DNA of 64,000 nt from Methylotenera sp. (GTDB lineage: Bacteria > Pseudomonadota > Gammaproteobacteria > Burkholderiales > Methylophilaceae). The stretch is from assembly GCA_009693255.1 (NCBI GenBank), contig SHXQ01000001.1, positions 98,511-162,510 of the forward strand. The letters run 5' to 3'. The first letter of the stretch is position 1, and the number at the start of each line of letters is the position of its first letter. The position numbers and the translations under genes are program-made. Shown in pieces: positions 49,099 through 56,457 of this stretch. The notes under the pieces were generated by a model. That model was not told where the DNA came from, searched no databases, and saw nothing but the letters and a program-made list of their open reading frames with translations.

Positions 49099-49983
49099 TC
49101 AATTAAATGCACCACTTGAGAGTACTTTAAAGCCATAATAGGTGCCAAACTCACCCTCGGATTCGTTATAGACAAACATCATGTCATTGGCATAACCAGC
49201 GCCATTATGATGGTTATGTGAGCGTAATTTTAATTCTTTCGGTAACTCACTTTTACCGACATACTTGCCACTTAAATCAAAGATTAATACCGCTTTGTGA
49301 TCAATATCAAGTAATGCAAGTTCCTCTCCTTTTACGCCACTGTAAGCTACAAAGTAATCGCTGACATCATCAAAAGCAGCACCGGCTTTAGTCAAGTCTA
49401 AGTCAATTTCACTCACTTGTTCGCGTAATTTCAAGTCAACGACCAAGACTTTATTACTGCGCCCTTGTTTTGCATAATACTGATTAGTTTCTGCGTTGTA
49501 GCTAGGCATCGTATTCGCGTCACCAAATGCAGGGTTAAAGCCAAACACATCGGTAGAGCTCTCTTTCAGCTCACCAGTTTCTGCCAGGTCAATAGAAAAT
49601 ATACCGGTGTTGGGTGAAAAGCCACCGAAGCTAGAAATGTTATAGGTAATCGTTTCTAATTTATGGCTGTTGTTGTTGTAATAAATGGATCGATTATCGT
49701 AACCTGAGCGAGAAGAGTTAACATATTTGCCTTCATTATCGTAGGCATGAATAAGCGATTTAGAAATAGGGGCTTCAAACTCACTGCCCATTGGCGCTAA
49801 GCCGCCATCGGCAATGTAATAATGTTTTAAACTGGCAATGTGTGCCACGGTCATGGGGCGGGTGCTGGGTTTTTGAGCCAACGGGATTTTAATCCCGACT
49901 TGCGCAGAGGCTAAAATTTCCGCTTGCGCCACTTGACATGTAGCAGTGAGGGCTAGGGACAATAATACGGTTGAAATACGCAT
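49099..49983 (-). CDS. secreted hypothetical protein, possible beta-propeller-like
   Basis: Signal peptide MRISTVLLSLALTATCQVAQA; 294 aa with repeated strand-like segments; no family recognised. Confidence 0.7.
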   Translation of the reverse strand: MRISTVLLSLALTATCQVAQAEILASAQVGIKIPLAQKPSTRPMTVAHIASLKHYYIADGGLAPMGSEFEAPISKSLIHAYDNEGKYVNSSRSGYDNRSIYYNNNSHKLETITYNISSFGGFSPNTGIFSIDLAETGELKESSTDVFGFNPAFGDANTMPSYNAETNQYYAKQGRSNKVLVVDLKLREQVSEIDLDLTKAGAAFDDVSDYFVAYSGVKGEELALLDIDHKAVLIFDLSGKYVGKSELPKELKLRSHNHHNGAGYANDMMFVYNESEGEFGTYYGFKVLSSGAFN

Positions 49984-51436: not shown

Positions 51437-53080
51437 TTACTGATGAGGTGAAGCTGGCATTGCCGTCGCATGCGCGGCATCTAAATTTTTATTTTCCAGT
51501 AAAAGGGGCTGCGCTAGATGGGCGCCATGAAATTCGTGGCATGACATGCAGCCACTGGCGATACGTTTGGATTTTGGACTGTTGCCAGAGTGGCATCTTA
51601 AGCAGGACTTTCTATCAGGCATAGCAACGTCTGCGCTCGTTTCAGATTTTTCTACTTGGTGGCAGGACTTGCATTGTTGTGTGCGATGCGATGCGTGATT
51701 GAAGCGTGCTTTGCTAAACCAATCCTGATTGATGTTGAGCGGCATGACGCGCCACGACAAGGCACTTTCTTGTGTAGGGATTTCATGGCAATAGGCACAG
51801 CCATCCGACTTTAACGATGCTGAGTACTGTTTGAATTTCTTTGGCGCTTGGACCTGCAGTGCGCTAATAACATTCTGCTCTGAGCCATGAGGCACAGTTA
51901 TTACTGCCTTGGCTGGACCAACCTGCAACTGTTTGGTGTGACACAGCAAGCAGTCTCGCTGGTAGGATACAGGCTTAAAGCGCATTTCTTTGCCTTCCTG
52001 TTGGTGGCAGTTAGTGCATGACAACTCGCGTACATCCCAGATTCCATTGGGCCCTTGCACTAGACCGACATGCTGGGAGTGGGGGAATTTTAGACCAGAT
52101 TTTTCAATCAAACGTGCTGTCTCAGCTTGCGGGATACGTTCGATATCTCCCCCCGTGCCATCTTTAGTGCGGCCCGTCTTGAATGTTAACTTGAAGTCTG
52201 GATGGTCACGATCAAAATCTTTAACATTAGGCAGTAAAGTTGTCGGACTGATAGACTTAATGTCGCCGTGACATTTGACGCACGTGCCGTTATCTTGCCG
52301 CGTGAGTGGGTAGGGCGCCTTATGCTCGCGATGACATTCAGCACAACGGACCCCGTCGGAAAATAGATGGGTAGATGTAAAGACACTTTTTTGTAAAGCG
52401 GGATTAGCAATGTGCGGTGCAGTGTCGCGATGGCAATTGACGCAGGCTTTGTTAGAAACTTTACGCGTTAACACTTCATGGCAGTTAAAACATTGTGCGC
52501 CAAAATGTAGGTGTGAATTGGAAATGTGACCTGGGCTCCATACGCGGTCAAAGCCAAAAGGCAATTGTGCCATAGCTTTTTGTAGTGGGGGAGCCAAGTT
52601 TTGCGCCAATGGCAATGCAAGGAAAATCAGCGCAATGAAGGCCGCCATCCATAGTGAAGCCCGTCGTTTGAAGCTTGAAGCGCCGCGTAGTGGTTCGTGA
52701 GTGCGCGACTTTAAATCTTGAAAATCATCGGGTAGGCGTTGTACCAATAGTAGAGAGATTGTTAGGTTGACATCGGGCGGTGCTGGCTCTACTTTCAATT
52801 GATAAGGACCAATGGTCACCAACTTACCGTGTGTCAGTTCAATGTTTTGCAGCACGCTACCATCTACCGCAAGTTCGCCGTTTACCGCAACCAGATGTAT
52901 CTGCCCACCATCCAATCTTTTGATTACCGCATGATGCATGGCTAGACGCGGATCAGGTAGATGTATGGTGCACTCTGCGCCGCGACCAATGGTAATTTCT
53001 TCTGCCGTGAGCGTGCGATAGCTGCGCGCTAAAACGCCGCGAGCATTATGAGAAATCTTGATTAAAAGACAATTAATCAT
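51437..53080 (-). CDS. FHA domain - TM - decaheme cytochrome c fusion protein
   Basis: N-terminal FHA-like ITIGRGAECTIHLPDPRLAMHHAVIKRL; FKRRASLWMAAFIALIFLALPLA TM; ten CxxCH motifs (CFNCH, CVNCH, CAECH, CVKCH, CTNCH, CLLCH, CAYCH, CKSCH, CLRCH, CMSCH). Confidence 0.92.
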   Translation of the reverse strand: MINCLLIKISHNARGVLARSYRTLTAEEITIGRGAECTIHLPDPRLAMHHAVIKRLDGGQIHLVAVNGELAVDGSVLQNIELTHGKLVTIGPYQLKVEPAPPDVNLTISLLLVQRLPDDFQDLKSRTHEPLRGASSFKRRASLWMAAFIALIFLALPLAQNLAPPLQKAMAQLPFGFDRVWSPGHISNSHLHFGAQCFNCHEVLTRKVSNKACVNCHRDTAPHIANPALQKSVFTSTHLFSDGVRCAECHREHKAPYPLTRQDNGTCVKCHGDIKSISPTTLLPNVKDFDRDHPDFKLTFKTGRTKDGTGGDIERIPQAETARLIEKSGLKFPHSQHVGLVQGPNGIWDVRELSCTNCHQQEGKEMRFKPVSYQRDCLLCHTKQLQVGPAKAVITVPHGSEQNVISALQVQAPKKFKQYSASLKSDGCAYCHEIPTQESALSWRVMPLNINQDWFSKARFNHASHRTQQCKSCHQVEKSETSADVAMPDRKSCLRCHSGNSPKSKRIASGCMSCHEFHGAHLAQPLLLENKNLDAAHATAMPASPHQ

Positions 53081-53096
53081 AAAGATACTTTATCAG

Positions 53097-53927
53097 TTAC
53101 CAATAAAAAAATATGGCAATAACATGTGCCACCATTGCTGTTAGCAATGCGACAGTGAAGGGGACGTGAAAATATAACCAGAAACCCATCCTAGCGCGGA
53201 ACATTAAATCCTGTCTTGCCCGTTTAACCAGGGACTCACGTCTCACCATGATGGAATAAAGATCACGGTATAATTTCCGTTGTTCGAGGGATAGTTCGCC
53301 ACCCAATACCGTTAGTTGTCGCACGACCGTTGCGGATGGACAATCCGGTTGAAATCCTCTAAGTTGCTCTAGCAAGCTAACACCGATAGAAGTTTCGCGA
53401 CAGGCGCGCGTTACGATGTTATTAATGTCATCGGGCATCATTAATGCAATTTGGCGTGCCAACTTATCGGTTTCTGCAATACGTAATAACAATCCATCCA
53501 AGCTATCTTCACCCATGTTTTCTGTCATGAGGCGCGGATAAATCATGTAAGCATAATTACCGAAAAAACCGCTAGTGACCACTATCAATAAAAGACCATA
53601 AGTGAGGCTGTGAATATTGAGGCCAAAATGGAATCCGCTATGTAGTGTCGCTATGACGGTCATAGCGGTACCCAGATAAATATGCGCAGATAACCAGCCC
53701 TGCGTGTTGCCGCGACTGCGGTAGCGTCGTTTGCGTATGCCGTACCAAGCCATCCAAAATACCATTGCCGCAGACAGCGTACCAAGACCATAACCTAGCC
53801 AGCTTCCACCGTAGTGACCGACCGCTGGTTCAAACAGCAGGAAGGCTAAAAGAGCGATGAGTATGACGATGACAGCTAATTTAAAGTAGCGGTAGTTCTT
53901 GTAGTCAAAAATATTGCTATGCTGCAT
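53097..53927 (-). CDS. putative b-type cytochrome / ferric-reductase-like membrane protein
   Basis: Multi-TM with in-helix His (GWLSAHIYLGTAMTVIATLHSGFHFGL; YFHVPFTVALLTAMVAHVIAIFFYW); same operon. Confidence 0.75.
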   Translation of the reverse strand: MQHSNIFDYKNYRYFKLAVIVILIALLAFLLFEPAVGHYGGSWLGYGLGTLSAAMVFWMAWYGIRKRRYRSRGNTQGWLSAHIYLGTAMTVIATLHSGFHFGLNIHSLTYGLLLIVVTSGFFGNYAYMIYPRLMTENMGEDSLDGLLLRIAETDKLARQIALMMPDDINNIVTRACRETSIGVSLLEQLRGFQPDCPSATVVRQLTVLGGELSLEQRKLYRDLYSIMVRRESLVKRARQDLMFRARMGFWLYFHVPFTVALLTAMVAHVIAIFFYW

Positions 53928-53940
53928 CTGGTTATTCTCT

Positions 53941-56457
53941 CTAATTTCCGTCTGAACCTAGTAAAGTGGCTTCGCCAGAGGTGCCGCCAGCATAGCTGAG
54001 TAACTCCTCTGGTTTAACGCGCAACGCCGCCCCTACTGGACAAGCGCGGACGCATACCGGACCATCGACAATATCTTTGCACATGTCACACTTCACCGCC
54101 ACTTTAGGTCCATCAACGACAGCTAAAGATTTAGGCTTAATACCAAGTAGCATCTGCCACAGGCTAGGTTCAGGCTGATCATGGATTACTGCCATTTGAA
54201 TCACATCGTAAGGGCAATTTACTTGGCAGTTACCACAACCGATGCAGCTGTCATCAATGTACACTTCACCATGTGGTGCGCGATGAATCGCGTCGGGTGG
54301 GCAATCTTTCATGCAGTGGGGATGTTCGCAGTGGCGGCAAGATGTGGGTACGCGAATATTTGCAAAAATCGGACCAGCATCCCGATCTAGTCGAGTTGCG
54401 CCACCATGCGTGTCGGCACAAGCCTGTTCGCAGTGATTGCAACGCACACATAACGACTCGTCGATGAGCAATACGTCGGTCGCTTCGCCTACCCCTTGTT
54501 GAATTAAGAAAGAAATTAGATTGGATGGGGTGGATTGCGTTGCGATAGAAGCCTTGCTATCAAAAGCCGTCTCCAGTTGCTGACGATTTTCCTGATCTTG
54601 CAAGTGTTGCAGGTAGCGCGCATCGAGTTCACCGCGAATTTCAGGATTGCGCGCAATGATGTCTCGCATACGCCCAGCTTCGATTAACACAGCGTCCGTC
54701 GCAATGGCGGCGCGAACCGTCGCATAGCGTGGCTCGCCAGAAACCAGTGACATTTCGCCTACATAATGGCCAGCCGCCACATAAAGTAGTACAACTTCTC
54801 TGCCGCCTATCAGGCGTGAAACGGTGACTGAGCCACTTTGAATTAAATATAGACCGTCTGCCTCATCCCCTTCATGAAATAGCTCTTCGCCAGCCGCATA
54901 GCTTTTGAGTGTGGCGTTATTAGCAACGTCATTAAGATCTTCTTCGCTTAGCGATAGGCCAATGCAGAGATGCACAATTGTCTTAATCGCGACTTCATTG
55001 AGTATGCGGCGCATAGACTGCACTGAATCAATGAGCTTTTGCATGACACGCCTAGGGGTTTCTATCAGCACGCACGGCGCACTAGCGCGAACCGTGCCAG
55101 CTCGGCGTCGGCCTGACACCAGCGCCAACTCGCCAAAAAATTCACCAGCTTTGAGTGTGGCATCTGGCGCACCATCATCATCAATCAGAACATCCAGCTC
55201 GCCTTCAATAATTAAGTAAAATGTGGTGCTGTAATCATTTCTTTTGAAAATGACATCACCTGCTTTCGCTAGTAATATATTACTTTCCAGCACCAGTTCT
55301 CGTAGCTGTAAGGTGTTAAGCATCGCCAGTAAGGGCACACTTTTACGAATTTTTTCTAATACATCCTCAACGCCACGGTCTGAGCAGAAGTTTGCAAATT
55401 TCTCACGCAATAGCGCGTTATCGGCGGGTTCAACAGGGTTGCCTAGTATGTATTCAATGACTTCGTAACCCTGATTGATGCCCTGCTTAATCAGCGGGTA
55501 ACCAGCCAACGCGCCAATGATATAAAGGCTGGGGACACTTGATTCGTAATGTGCGGACAGTTGAGGGAGTGCCTCTAGATCCGGGGCTGAGAAGCCGATG
55601 CCAAAGCTTTCTAGTTGCGCGCGTGATGGCAGTGCGCCAAGTCGCGCAATGACTCGATGGCACGGAATGCGTTCAACACCATTCGGCGTACTAGCAAACA
55701 CGGTAATTGGAAATTCGCCTGTGCTATTCTGTTCAATAGATTGTGGTTTGGTTTCTAGTAGCCAGTCCAGCACACCCTTCATGTGGGCATCGGTTAATTG
55801 GCTTAAATTGCTGTCCTTACAATTACTGAAGTCTTCAGCGCGGTTTAATATAATGACTTGGTTGCGACCGGTCAGCGCCAGCGCATTTTCGACGCCGCTA
55901 TCGCCGCCACCGATGACCACGATAGTCTCTTCTTGGTAGGCTTGTGGGTCATCGAGTTGATATTGAATTTGAGGTAAGTCGCCGCCAGGAATGTCCAGTT
56001 TTCGCAAATTGCCTTGCACACCAACGGCGAGTACCACATGATCAGCGCTTAATAGGCTGCCATCCGCCAGTTCCACTTCAAGTGACTTTGTGTTGCGGCG
56101 CAAACCTACAACCTTAGCGCCGTAGCGCACATTAACACGATATTCGGCTATCGTTTTTTCCCAAGTATCAAGCACGGTTTCACGTAGGGCGGCAGTAAAT
56201 GGTAGTGGACTGCGAAGCGGCAAGCCTCGTGGTTCAGCCATGACCAGCTTGCCTCGCTGATAATTTCGAATAGTGTTTGCGGGCGCCTCTTCGGCCTCTA
56301 GCAGTAAGTAGGAAACATTTTGCTCGGTGGCATGTACGGCAGCAGATAGCCCGCTGGGTCCGGCGCCTATAATAATGAGCTTGAAATGTTTTGGTGTGAC
56401 AATTCCAGTCTTACTGCTAGTTTTTTGCACTATATTCGGCGCTAGAGTTGTTACCAT
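53941..56457 (-). CDS. FAD/NAD(P) oxidoreductase - two cNMP-binding domains - four-cluster ferredoxin fusion
   Basis: GAGPSGLSAAVHATEQ (FAD), VIGGGDSGVENALAL (NAD(P)), two CAP_ED-like domains (GEFFGELALVSGRRRAGTVRA; GEMSLVSGEPRYATVRA), 16 Cys in a DmsB-like pattern. Confidence 0.93.
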   Translation of the reverse strand: MVTTLAPNIVQKTSSKTGIVTPKHFKLIIIGAGPSGLSAAVHATEQNVSYLLLEAEEAPANTIRNYQRGKLVMAEPRGLPLRSPLPFTAALRETVLDTWEKTIAEYRVNVRYGAKVVGLRRNTKSLEVELADGSLLSADHVVLAVGVQGNLRKLDIPGGDLPQIQYQLDDPQAYQEETIVVIGGGDSGVENALALTGRNQVIILNRAEDFSNCKDSNLSQLTDAHMKGVLDWLLETKPQSIEQNSTGEFPITVFASTPNGVERIPCHRVIARLGALPSRAQLESFGIGFSAPDLEALPQLSAHYESSVPSLYIIGALAGYPLIKQGINQGYEVIEYILGNPVEPADNALLREKFANFCSDRGVEDVLEKIRKSVPLLAMLNTLQLRELVLESNILLAKAGDVIFKRNDYSTTFYLIIEGELDVLIDDDGAPDATLKAGEFFGELALVSGRRRAGTVRASAPCVLIETPRRVMQKLIDSVQSMRRILNEVAIKTIVHLCIGLSLSEEDLNDVANNATLKSYAAGEELFHEGDEADGLYLIQSGSVTVSRLIGGREVVLLYVAAGHYVGEMSLVSGEPRYATVRAAIATDAVLIEAGRMRDIIARNPEIRGELDARYLQHLQDQENRQQLETAFDSKASIATQSTPSNLISFLIQQGVGEATDVLLIDESLCVRCNHCEQACADTHGGATRLDRDAGPIFANIRVPTSCRHCEHPHCMKDCPPDAIHRAPHGEVYIDDSCIGCGNCQVNCPYDVIQMAVIHDQPEPSLWQMLLGIKPKSLAVVDGPKVAVKCDMCKDIVDGPVCVRACPVGAALRVKPEELLSYAGGTSGEATLLGSDGN

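Follow-up and report, generated by a model that had tools for sequence, protein, structure and literature searches.

An FHA domain with a degenerate phosphothreonine pocket, joined to a decaheme cytochrome in a conserved three-gene operon of Methylotenera

The window analysed here is a stretch of 64,000 nucleotides from Methylotenera sp. (assembly GCA_009693255.1, contig SHXQ01000001.1, positions 98,511 to 162,510). On its minus strand lies a tight three-gene operon encoding, in this order, a cytosolic protein that combines FAD, cyclic-nucleotide-binding (CNB) and Fe-S parts (FAD/CNB/FeS protein), a cytochrome b-like protein following after 13 nt and, after a further 16 nt and as the last gene, a decaheme cytochrome with an N-terminal FHA domain. 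The genome also encodes a PQQ alcohol dehydrogenase, which points to a probable methylotroph within the Methylophilaceae. The features are as follows.

51437..53080, minus strand: FHA–transmembrane–decaheme c-type cytochrome, 547 aa (open reading frame; Pfam FHA and cytochrome c3/c7 matches; ten CxxCH; orthologs)
52781..53080, minus strand: cytoplasmic FHA domain, aa 1-100 (PF00498; AlphaFold fold; pocket residues R33 and H50 kept, Ser lost at A47, N67 kept in the genus only)
52595..52675, minus strand: single transmembrane helix, aa 136-162 (hydropathy maximum at aa 141-159; helix in the model)
51527..52513, minus strand: periplasmic decaheme region, aa 190-518 (ten CxxCH and ten conserved distal His)
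53097..53927, minus strand: cytochrome b-like inner-membrane protein, 276 aa (two WX3HX13H motifs, at W78 and W250, and SGXXG at aa 119)
53941..56457, minus strand: FAD/NAD(P) oxidoreductase (YpdA/TrxR-like) with two CNB domains and four [4Fe-4S] clusters, 838 aa, cytosolic (profiles, motifs)
54646..54906, minus strand: second CNB domain of the 838-aa protein, aa 518-604 (PF00027; G567-E568 in 46/46 copies, R577 in 45/46)
54040..54450, minus strand: four [4Fe-4S] cysteine sets of the 838-aa protein, aa 670-806 (four patterns with 16 Cys in total, none of them below 97% conservation)

The initial annotation had described the gene at 51437-53080, without stating its strand, as an FHA domain joined through a transmembrane helix to a ten-heme region. 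The coordinates are correct and the architecture was confirmed by Pfam, hydropathy, the CxxCH count and a structural model. PF00498 matched aa 29-91 and, at 33.8 bits, passed its cut-off of 20.7; beyond aa 190 there were matches to several cytochrome families of class III/c7. Only one hydrophobic segment is present (aa 141-159); it is immediately preceded by KRR at aa 138-140, which fits an N-in/C-out topology. The AlphaFold model, built with 39 sequences (mean pLDDT 79.8), shows an all-beta domain at aa 1-112 and a helix at aa 136-162. Comparison by Foldseek and VIA-align identified an FHA fold at aa 1-103, with Z ≈ 10 and rmsd 2.2-2.7 over about 90 residues against solved FHA domains, and pLDDT is mostly 88-98 over this part. 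The list of structural matches for the full model was taken up by FHA matches.

Exactly ten CxxCH motifs are found, at aa 197, 213, 246, 267, 355, 377, 428, 470, 493 and 511, and the first Cys of each is kept in 115 or 116 of the 116 aligned homologs. Some homologs count nine motifs, and at least one of these (from locus L005) has CX4CH at the sixth site. The additional free histidines that had been proposed for bis-His ligation were indeed found: H190, H223, H253, H293, H334, H337, H398, H462, H465 and H518 are conserved, eight of them in 116/116 and two in 115/116 homologs. Ten further conserved histidines are the number needed, and the alignment thus fits bis-His ligation of all ten hemes. 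With CcmF, for c-heme attachment, encoded in the same genome, the protein combines the CxxCH motifs, distal histidines, export topology and Ccm machinery that characterize multiheme c-type cytochromes. Purifying selection acts on the open frame: within the genus, median dN/dS is about 0.08 for the FHA part and about 0.07 for the heme part, both rough values with dS near saturation. The last 27 residues (aa 521-547; 51440-51520, minus strand) form an unconserved C-terminal tail with a dN/dS of roughly 0.9 in the genus.

Among 187 genomes of the family, the gene was found, whole or in pieces, in 41 other genomes of the genus at approximately 60-83% identity; the genus sample comprised 52 genomes in all, 42 carriers and 10 non-carriers. 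More distant homologs (27-39% identity) occur in Alpha-, Beta- and Gammaproteobacteria and in Magnetococcales. In total, 380 relatives were counted, 80 loci were kept, and 101 of the 116 aligned homologs carry the FHA domain. The domain is absent from one clade of 13 rows, including Duganella, in which the rest of the operon is intact in the members tested except genome G003. On a heme-region tree of quick form only and with long branches, FHA looks ancestral and lost once. Two further FHA-less rows (L075, L094) were set aside as contig-edge truncations, since the matches begin at a contig end.

FHA domains that bind phosphothreonine (pThr) contact the phosphate with two residues, a Ser and the Arg that follows the first Gly; an Asn further along touches the peptide, and a His has a structural role. 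By sequence alignment to the FHA domains of Ki-67 and Rv0020c, the pocket Ser lies opposite A47 of the window protein, which thus has Ala at the phosphate-contacting Ser/Thr position while keeping R33, H50 and N67. The initial annotation had proposed checking whether the pThr-binding residues are conserved in orthologs, and this turned out not to be so. Across the 101 FHA-bearing homologs Arg33 is invariant (101/101), but Ser/Thr is found in 13/101, Asn67 in 16/101 and His50 in 70/101, so that the Arg/Ser/His/Asn set of a pThr-reading FHA domain is not conserved in the family. As controls, stand-alone FHA proteins of the same order keep the canonical GR..SxxHA, mostly together with STNG. Among 20 genus orthologs, R33, H50, N67 and G68 are present in all 20, and position 47 is Ala in 16 and Ser in 4. 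Family-wide, G32-R33 is invariant and accompanied by a family-specific L-x-D-P-R motif (D43 in 96/101, R45 in 84/101), the conservation of which suggests a specific but different FHA surface.

If the domain were a genuine pThr reader, phosphorylation by a Ser/Thr kinase would let a cytosolic partner bind and thereby tune the complex. The invariant R33, the fully kept H50 and N67-G68 of the genus and the 13 homologs with Ser/Thr speak for this, as does the occurrence of kinases in 44 of the 52 genus genomes and in 11 FHA-bearing genomes of other families. Against it stand the Ala at position 47 in the window protein and most genus orthologs, the family-wide loss of the pocket, and the kinase searches. 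The window's operon contains no kinase or phosphatase gene. Its own genome (84.7% complete), of which the FHA–decaheme protein is the only FHA protein, gave no match to Pkinase or PP2C, and no Pkinase match was obtained in five FHA-bearing genomes of 90-95% completeness (G109, G185, G276, G442, G447). Within the genus a kinase is present in 35/42 carriers vs 9/10 non-carriers, hence there is no association of kinase presence with the decaheme gene. The search for a partner Ser/Thr kinase suggested by the initial annotation therefore leans against a reader without being uniform, kinases being present in most of the other genomes. We consider a pThr reader very unlikely and, because of the pocket loss, set it aside as the main reading; a weak or altered pThr function may nevertheless persist in the window's genus. 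The initial annotation had spoken of an inside-out signalling or scaffolding device. The link of the FHA domain, through the inner membrane, to hemes on the periplasmic side is conserved in the family and under selection, while its reading of pThr is weakened by the pocket loss, and scaffolding remains the better half of this idea.

Alternatively, FHA might be no more than a structural relic, or might serve oligomerisation without a specific partner. Its clean loss in one clade, with the other operon genes intact, would fit this. However, purifying selection on the FHA part is strong, at about the level of the heme region by the rough estimate given above, and the invariant G32-R33 together with the L-x-D-P-R motif points to a specific surface, which makes a relic unlikely in our estimation.

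The cytochrome b-like protein carries W78-H82-H96, S119GFFG and W250-H254-H268, i.e. the two WX3HX13H motifs and the SGXXG motif, in the described order, of the PCC3/PCC4 inner-membrane protein signature, which was interpreted as two heme b sites (He et al. 2017, PMC5566968). It is a putative five-helix protein, of which a simple hydropathy threshold showed only two clear segments. In 73 of 74 testable loci, mainly of Alpha-, Beta- and Gammaproteobacteria, its gene lies immediately upstream of the decaheme gene; in the sole exception (L078) a real gap of about 0.8 kb separates the two. Gene order and tight spacing of the module are conserved across phyla.

In the 838-aa protein, four [4Fe-4S] clusters and a tandem of intact CNB domains are fused, in an unusual combination, to a YpdA-like FAD/NAD part that lacks CxxC. 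GxGxxG motifs for FAD and NAD(P) are present; the YpdA profile cut-off was not reached. An identity as thioredoxin reductase was rejected, as there is no redox CxxC and only C213, C266 and C358 precede the CNB part. Among 46 copies, the phosphate-binding G-E...R motif is complete in the first CNB domain in all 46, and in the second it is kept as given in the feature list. With the CNB motifs intact and the FHA pocket degenerate, a cyclic nucleotide (cNMP) is more likely than pThr to be the cytosolic signal. The same genome has a match to class III nucleotide cyclases (L146, C7:46518-47048), which contains one in-frame TAG in the frame read. Genomes with an FHA-less decaheme protein, where tested, mostly keep the FAD/CNB/FeS protein, and a dependence of its presence on FHA was therefore rejected. 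L018, from genome G003, is the only tested case in which both are missing.

In 48 of the 80 loci the nearby genes include those for an HbpS-like lipoprotein, a large decaheme protein (1250-1275 aa, ten CxxCH, LVIVD repeats) and a barrel-like protein to which Pfam assigned no clear domain, 41 times on the same strand; a tetraheme c554-like protein sometimes joins the set. The four-gene set of lipoprotein, barrel, 1275-aa decaheme and tetraheme protein, seen at L034:11731-20707, L060, L090 and about 45 other loci, is a putative outer-membrane conduit; no name for it was found in the literature searched. Ccm genes adjoin in L034 and L090. Near the module in the window, in ten regions from the same family and in Gallionellaceae loci, no porin-type genes were found. 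The window also lacks the lipoprotein, barrel and large-decaheme genes, and the porin plus extracellular MHC that mark a PCC3 cluster are absent beside its module. A search of its own genome for the outer-membrane 1275-aa decaheme gave no match, an empty result that shows little as the search had no positive control. A cytochrome oxidase operon adjoins the module in the window; a conserved linkage to it was rejected, since among ten related regions only L158 shares it. At 49099-49983 on the minus strand lies a 294-aa open reading frame with a hydrophobic, signal-peptide-like start and no Pfam match.

With regard to the pathway, the module could be a periplasmic redox-balance device passing electrons from NAD(P)H to periplasmic acceptors or a terminal oxidase, instead of serving extracellular exchange. 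This is supported by the lack of porin-type genes near the module in the window and in the related and Gallionellaceae regions, given that MHC/inner-membrane-protein clusters without a porin have been judged less likely to serve EET (He et al., PMC5566968), and by the oxidase operon next door, the latter in the window and L158 only. The barrel, large decaheme and lipoprotein genes near 48 of the 80 loci speak against it. We regard redox balance as a real possibility, to which we nevertheless give less than an even chance.

On balance, we slightly favour the view that the three proteins constitute an inner-membrane electron-exchange module in which FHA has a pThr-independent docking or organising role. 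From the domain content, the heme and Fe-S ligands, the conservation of the operon, the loss of the canonical FHA pocket and the intact CNB motifs, we infer the complex, its electron path, its docking partner and its regulation by cNMP. According to this model, NAD(P)H and the FAD of the 838-aa protein would exchange electrons, which would run along the four [4Fe-4S] clusters of this protein and cross the membrane by way of two b hemes, the quinone pool or both. At the periplasmic face, the ten bis-His c hemes would then exchange electrons, in either direction, with periplasmic or outer-membrane cytochromes. Under the membrane, the FHA domain would most likely contact the FAD/CNB/FeS protein or another fixed partner. 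Cyclic nucleotide bound to the two CNB domains, rather than phosphothreonine, would be the likeliest regulatory input, presumably gating electron flow. A pThr-independent role is suggested by a fold that is certain combined with a pocket that is degenerate, and by precedents in SctD (topology and pocket loss) and in GarA/OdhI (phospho-independent binding). Three observations count against this model. Since the tested members of the FHA-less clade keep the FAD/CNB/FeS protein with the exception of G003, docking of this protein cannot depend universally on FHA; the absolute conservation of R33 is not obviously required by a pure scaffold; and Ser/Thr is still found in some homologs.

An electron-exchange module of this kind, if correct, would directly connect a respiratory or extracellular electron conduit with a second messenger, and the FHA fold would have found a new use, independent of pThr, in organising a cytochrome complex. 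More speculatively, the module may form a cNMP-gated trans-envelope conduit, in which the tandem CNB domains switch an NAD(P)H-linked flow via [4Fe-4S] clusters, heme b and the FHA-organised decaheme, with the outer-membrane barrel and 1275-aa LVIVD-decaheme as partner in about half of the lineages. We hold this to be rather doubtful. If true, such a conduit would have a wide distribution among proteobacteria, extending to SAR116 and further marine groups that are not known to carry out EET, and its outer-membrane partner would be previously undescribed.

The family itself appears to have been seen before. Of the 87 Gallionellaceae iron oxidisers in the pangenome of Hoover et al. (PMC10734462), 27 have a 10-heme 'Forkhead-associated protein' (cluster 403), which Table 1 of that paper places under 'Other' without a function. 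Like the window protein it combines FHA with ten hemes, and the loci studied here include Gallionella and Sideroxydans (L040, L048, L059, L095). On this description, both probably belong to one family. In the literature searched, this paper was the only one found to hold an FHA–multiheme combination; operon, topology and pocket analysis were not found in its text, nor were the operon, the pocket degeneration and the CNB partner found described elsewhere in that literature. If our reading is right, this unexplained protein of iron oxidisers is tied to a specific three-gene operon that is genetically testable in cultured methylotrophs.

Several known systems share parts of this arrangement. Clusters of an MHC and a five-helix inner-membrane protein, and PCC3/PCC4 (PMC5566968), have the same motifs, an adjacent multiheme c-type cytochrome and often a further redox protein. 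PCC3, however, comprises much larger MHCs (medians of 34 and 21 hemes) and a porin, both of which the window cluster lacks, and the latter carries FHA and CNB domains. DmsE/MtrA-type decahemes are likewise periplasmic with ten CxxCH, whereas the window protein is membrane-anchored with an N-terminal FHA domain; membership in this group (TIGR03508) was rejected on score (27.7 vs 192.2 bits). GarA and OdhI, whose FHA domains are the nearest of solved structure in both profile and fold, offer a precedent for binding enzymes in a phospho-independent manner; such FHA interactions are named in the title of Nott 2009, as cited in PMC12321487. Both are, however, soluble, kinase-regulated FHA proteins with pThr recognition. 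SctD/PrgH/YscD of type III secretion similarly possess a cytoplasmic FHA fold with a degenerate pThr site, one transmembrane helix and a periplasmic part, which in their case is not a cytochrome. The Chlamydia CdsD FHA domain (3gqs) is among the top structural matches to that of the window protein, while the SctD/YscD profile PF16697 stayed below its cut-off (24.0 vs 33.2 bits). In these SctD-type proteins the FHA domain is unlikely to bind pThr, yet it is needed for assembly (PMC3635987).
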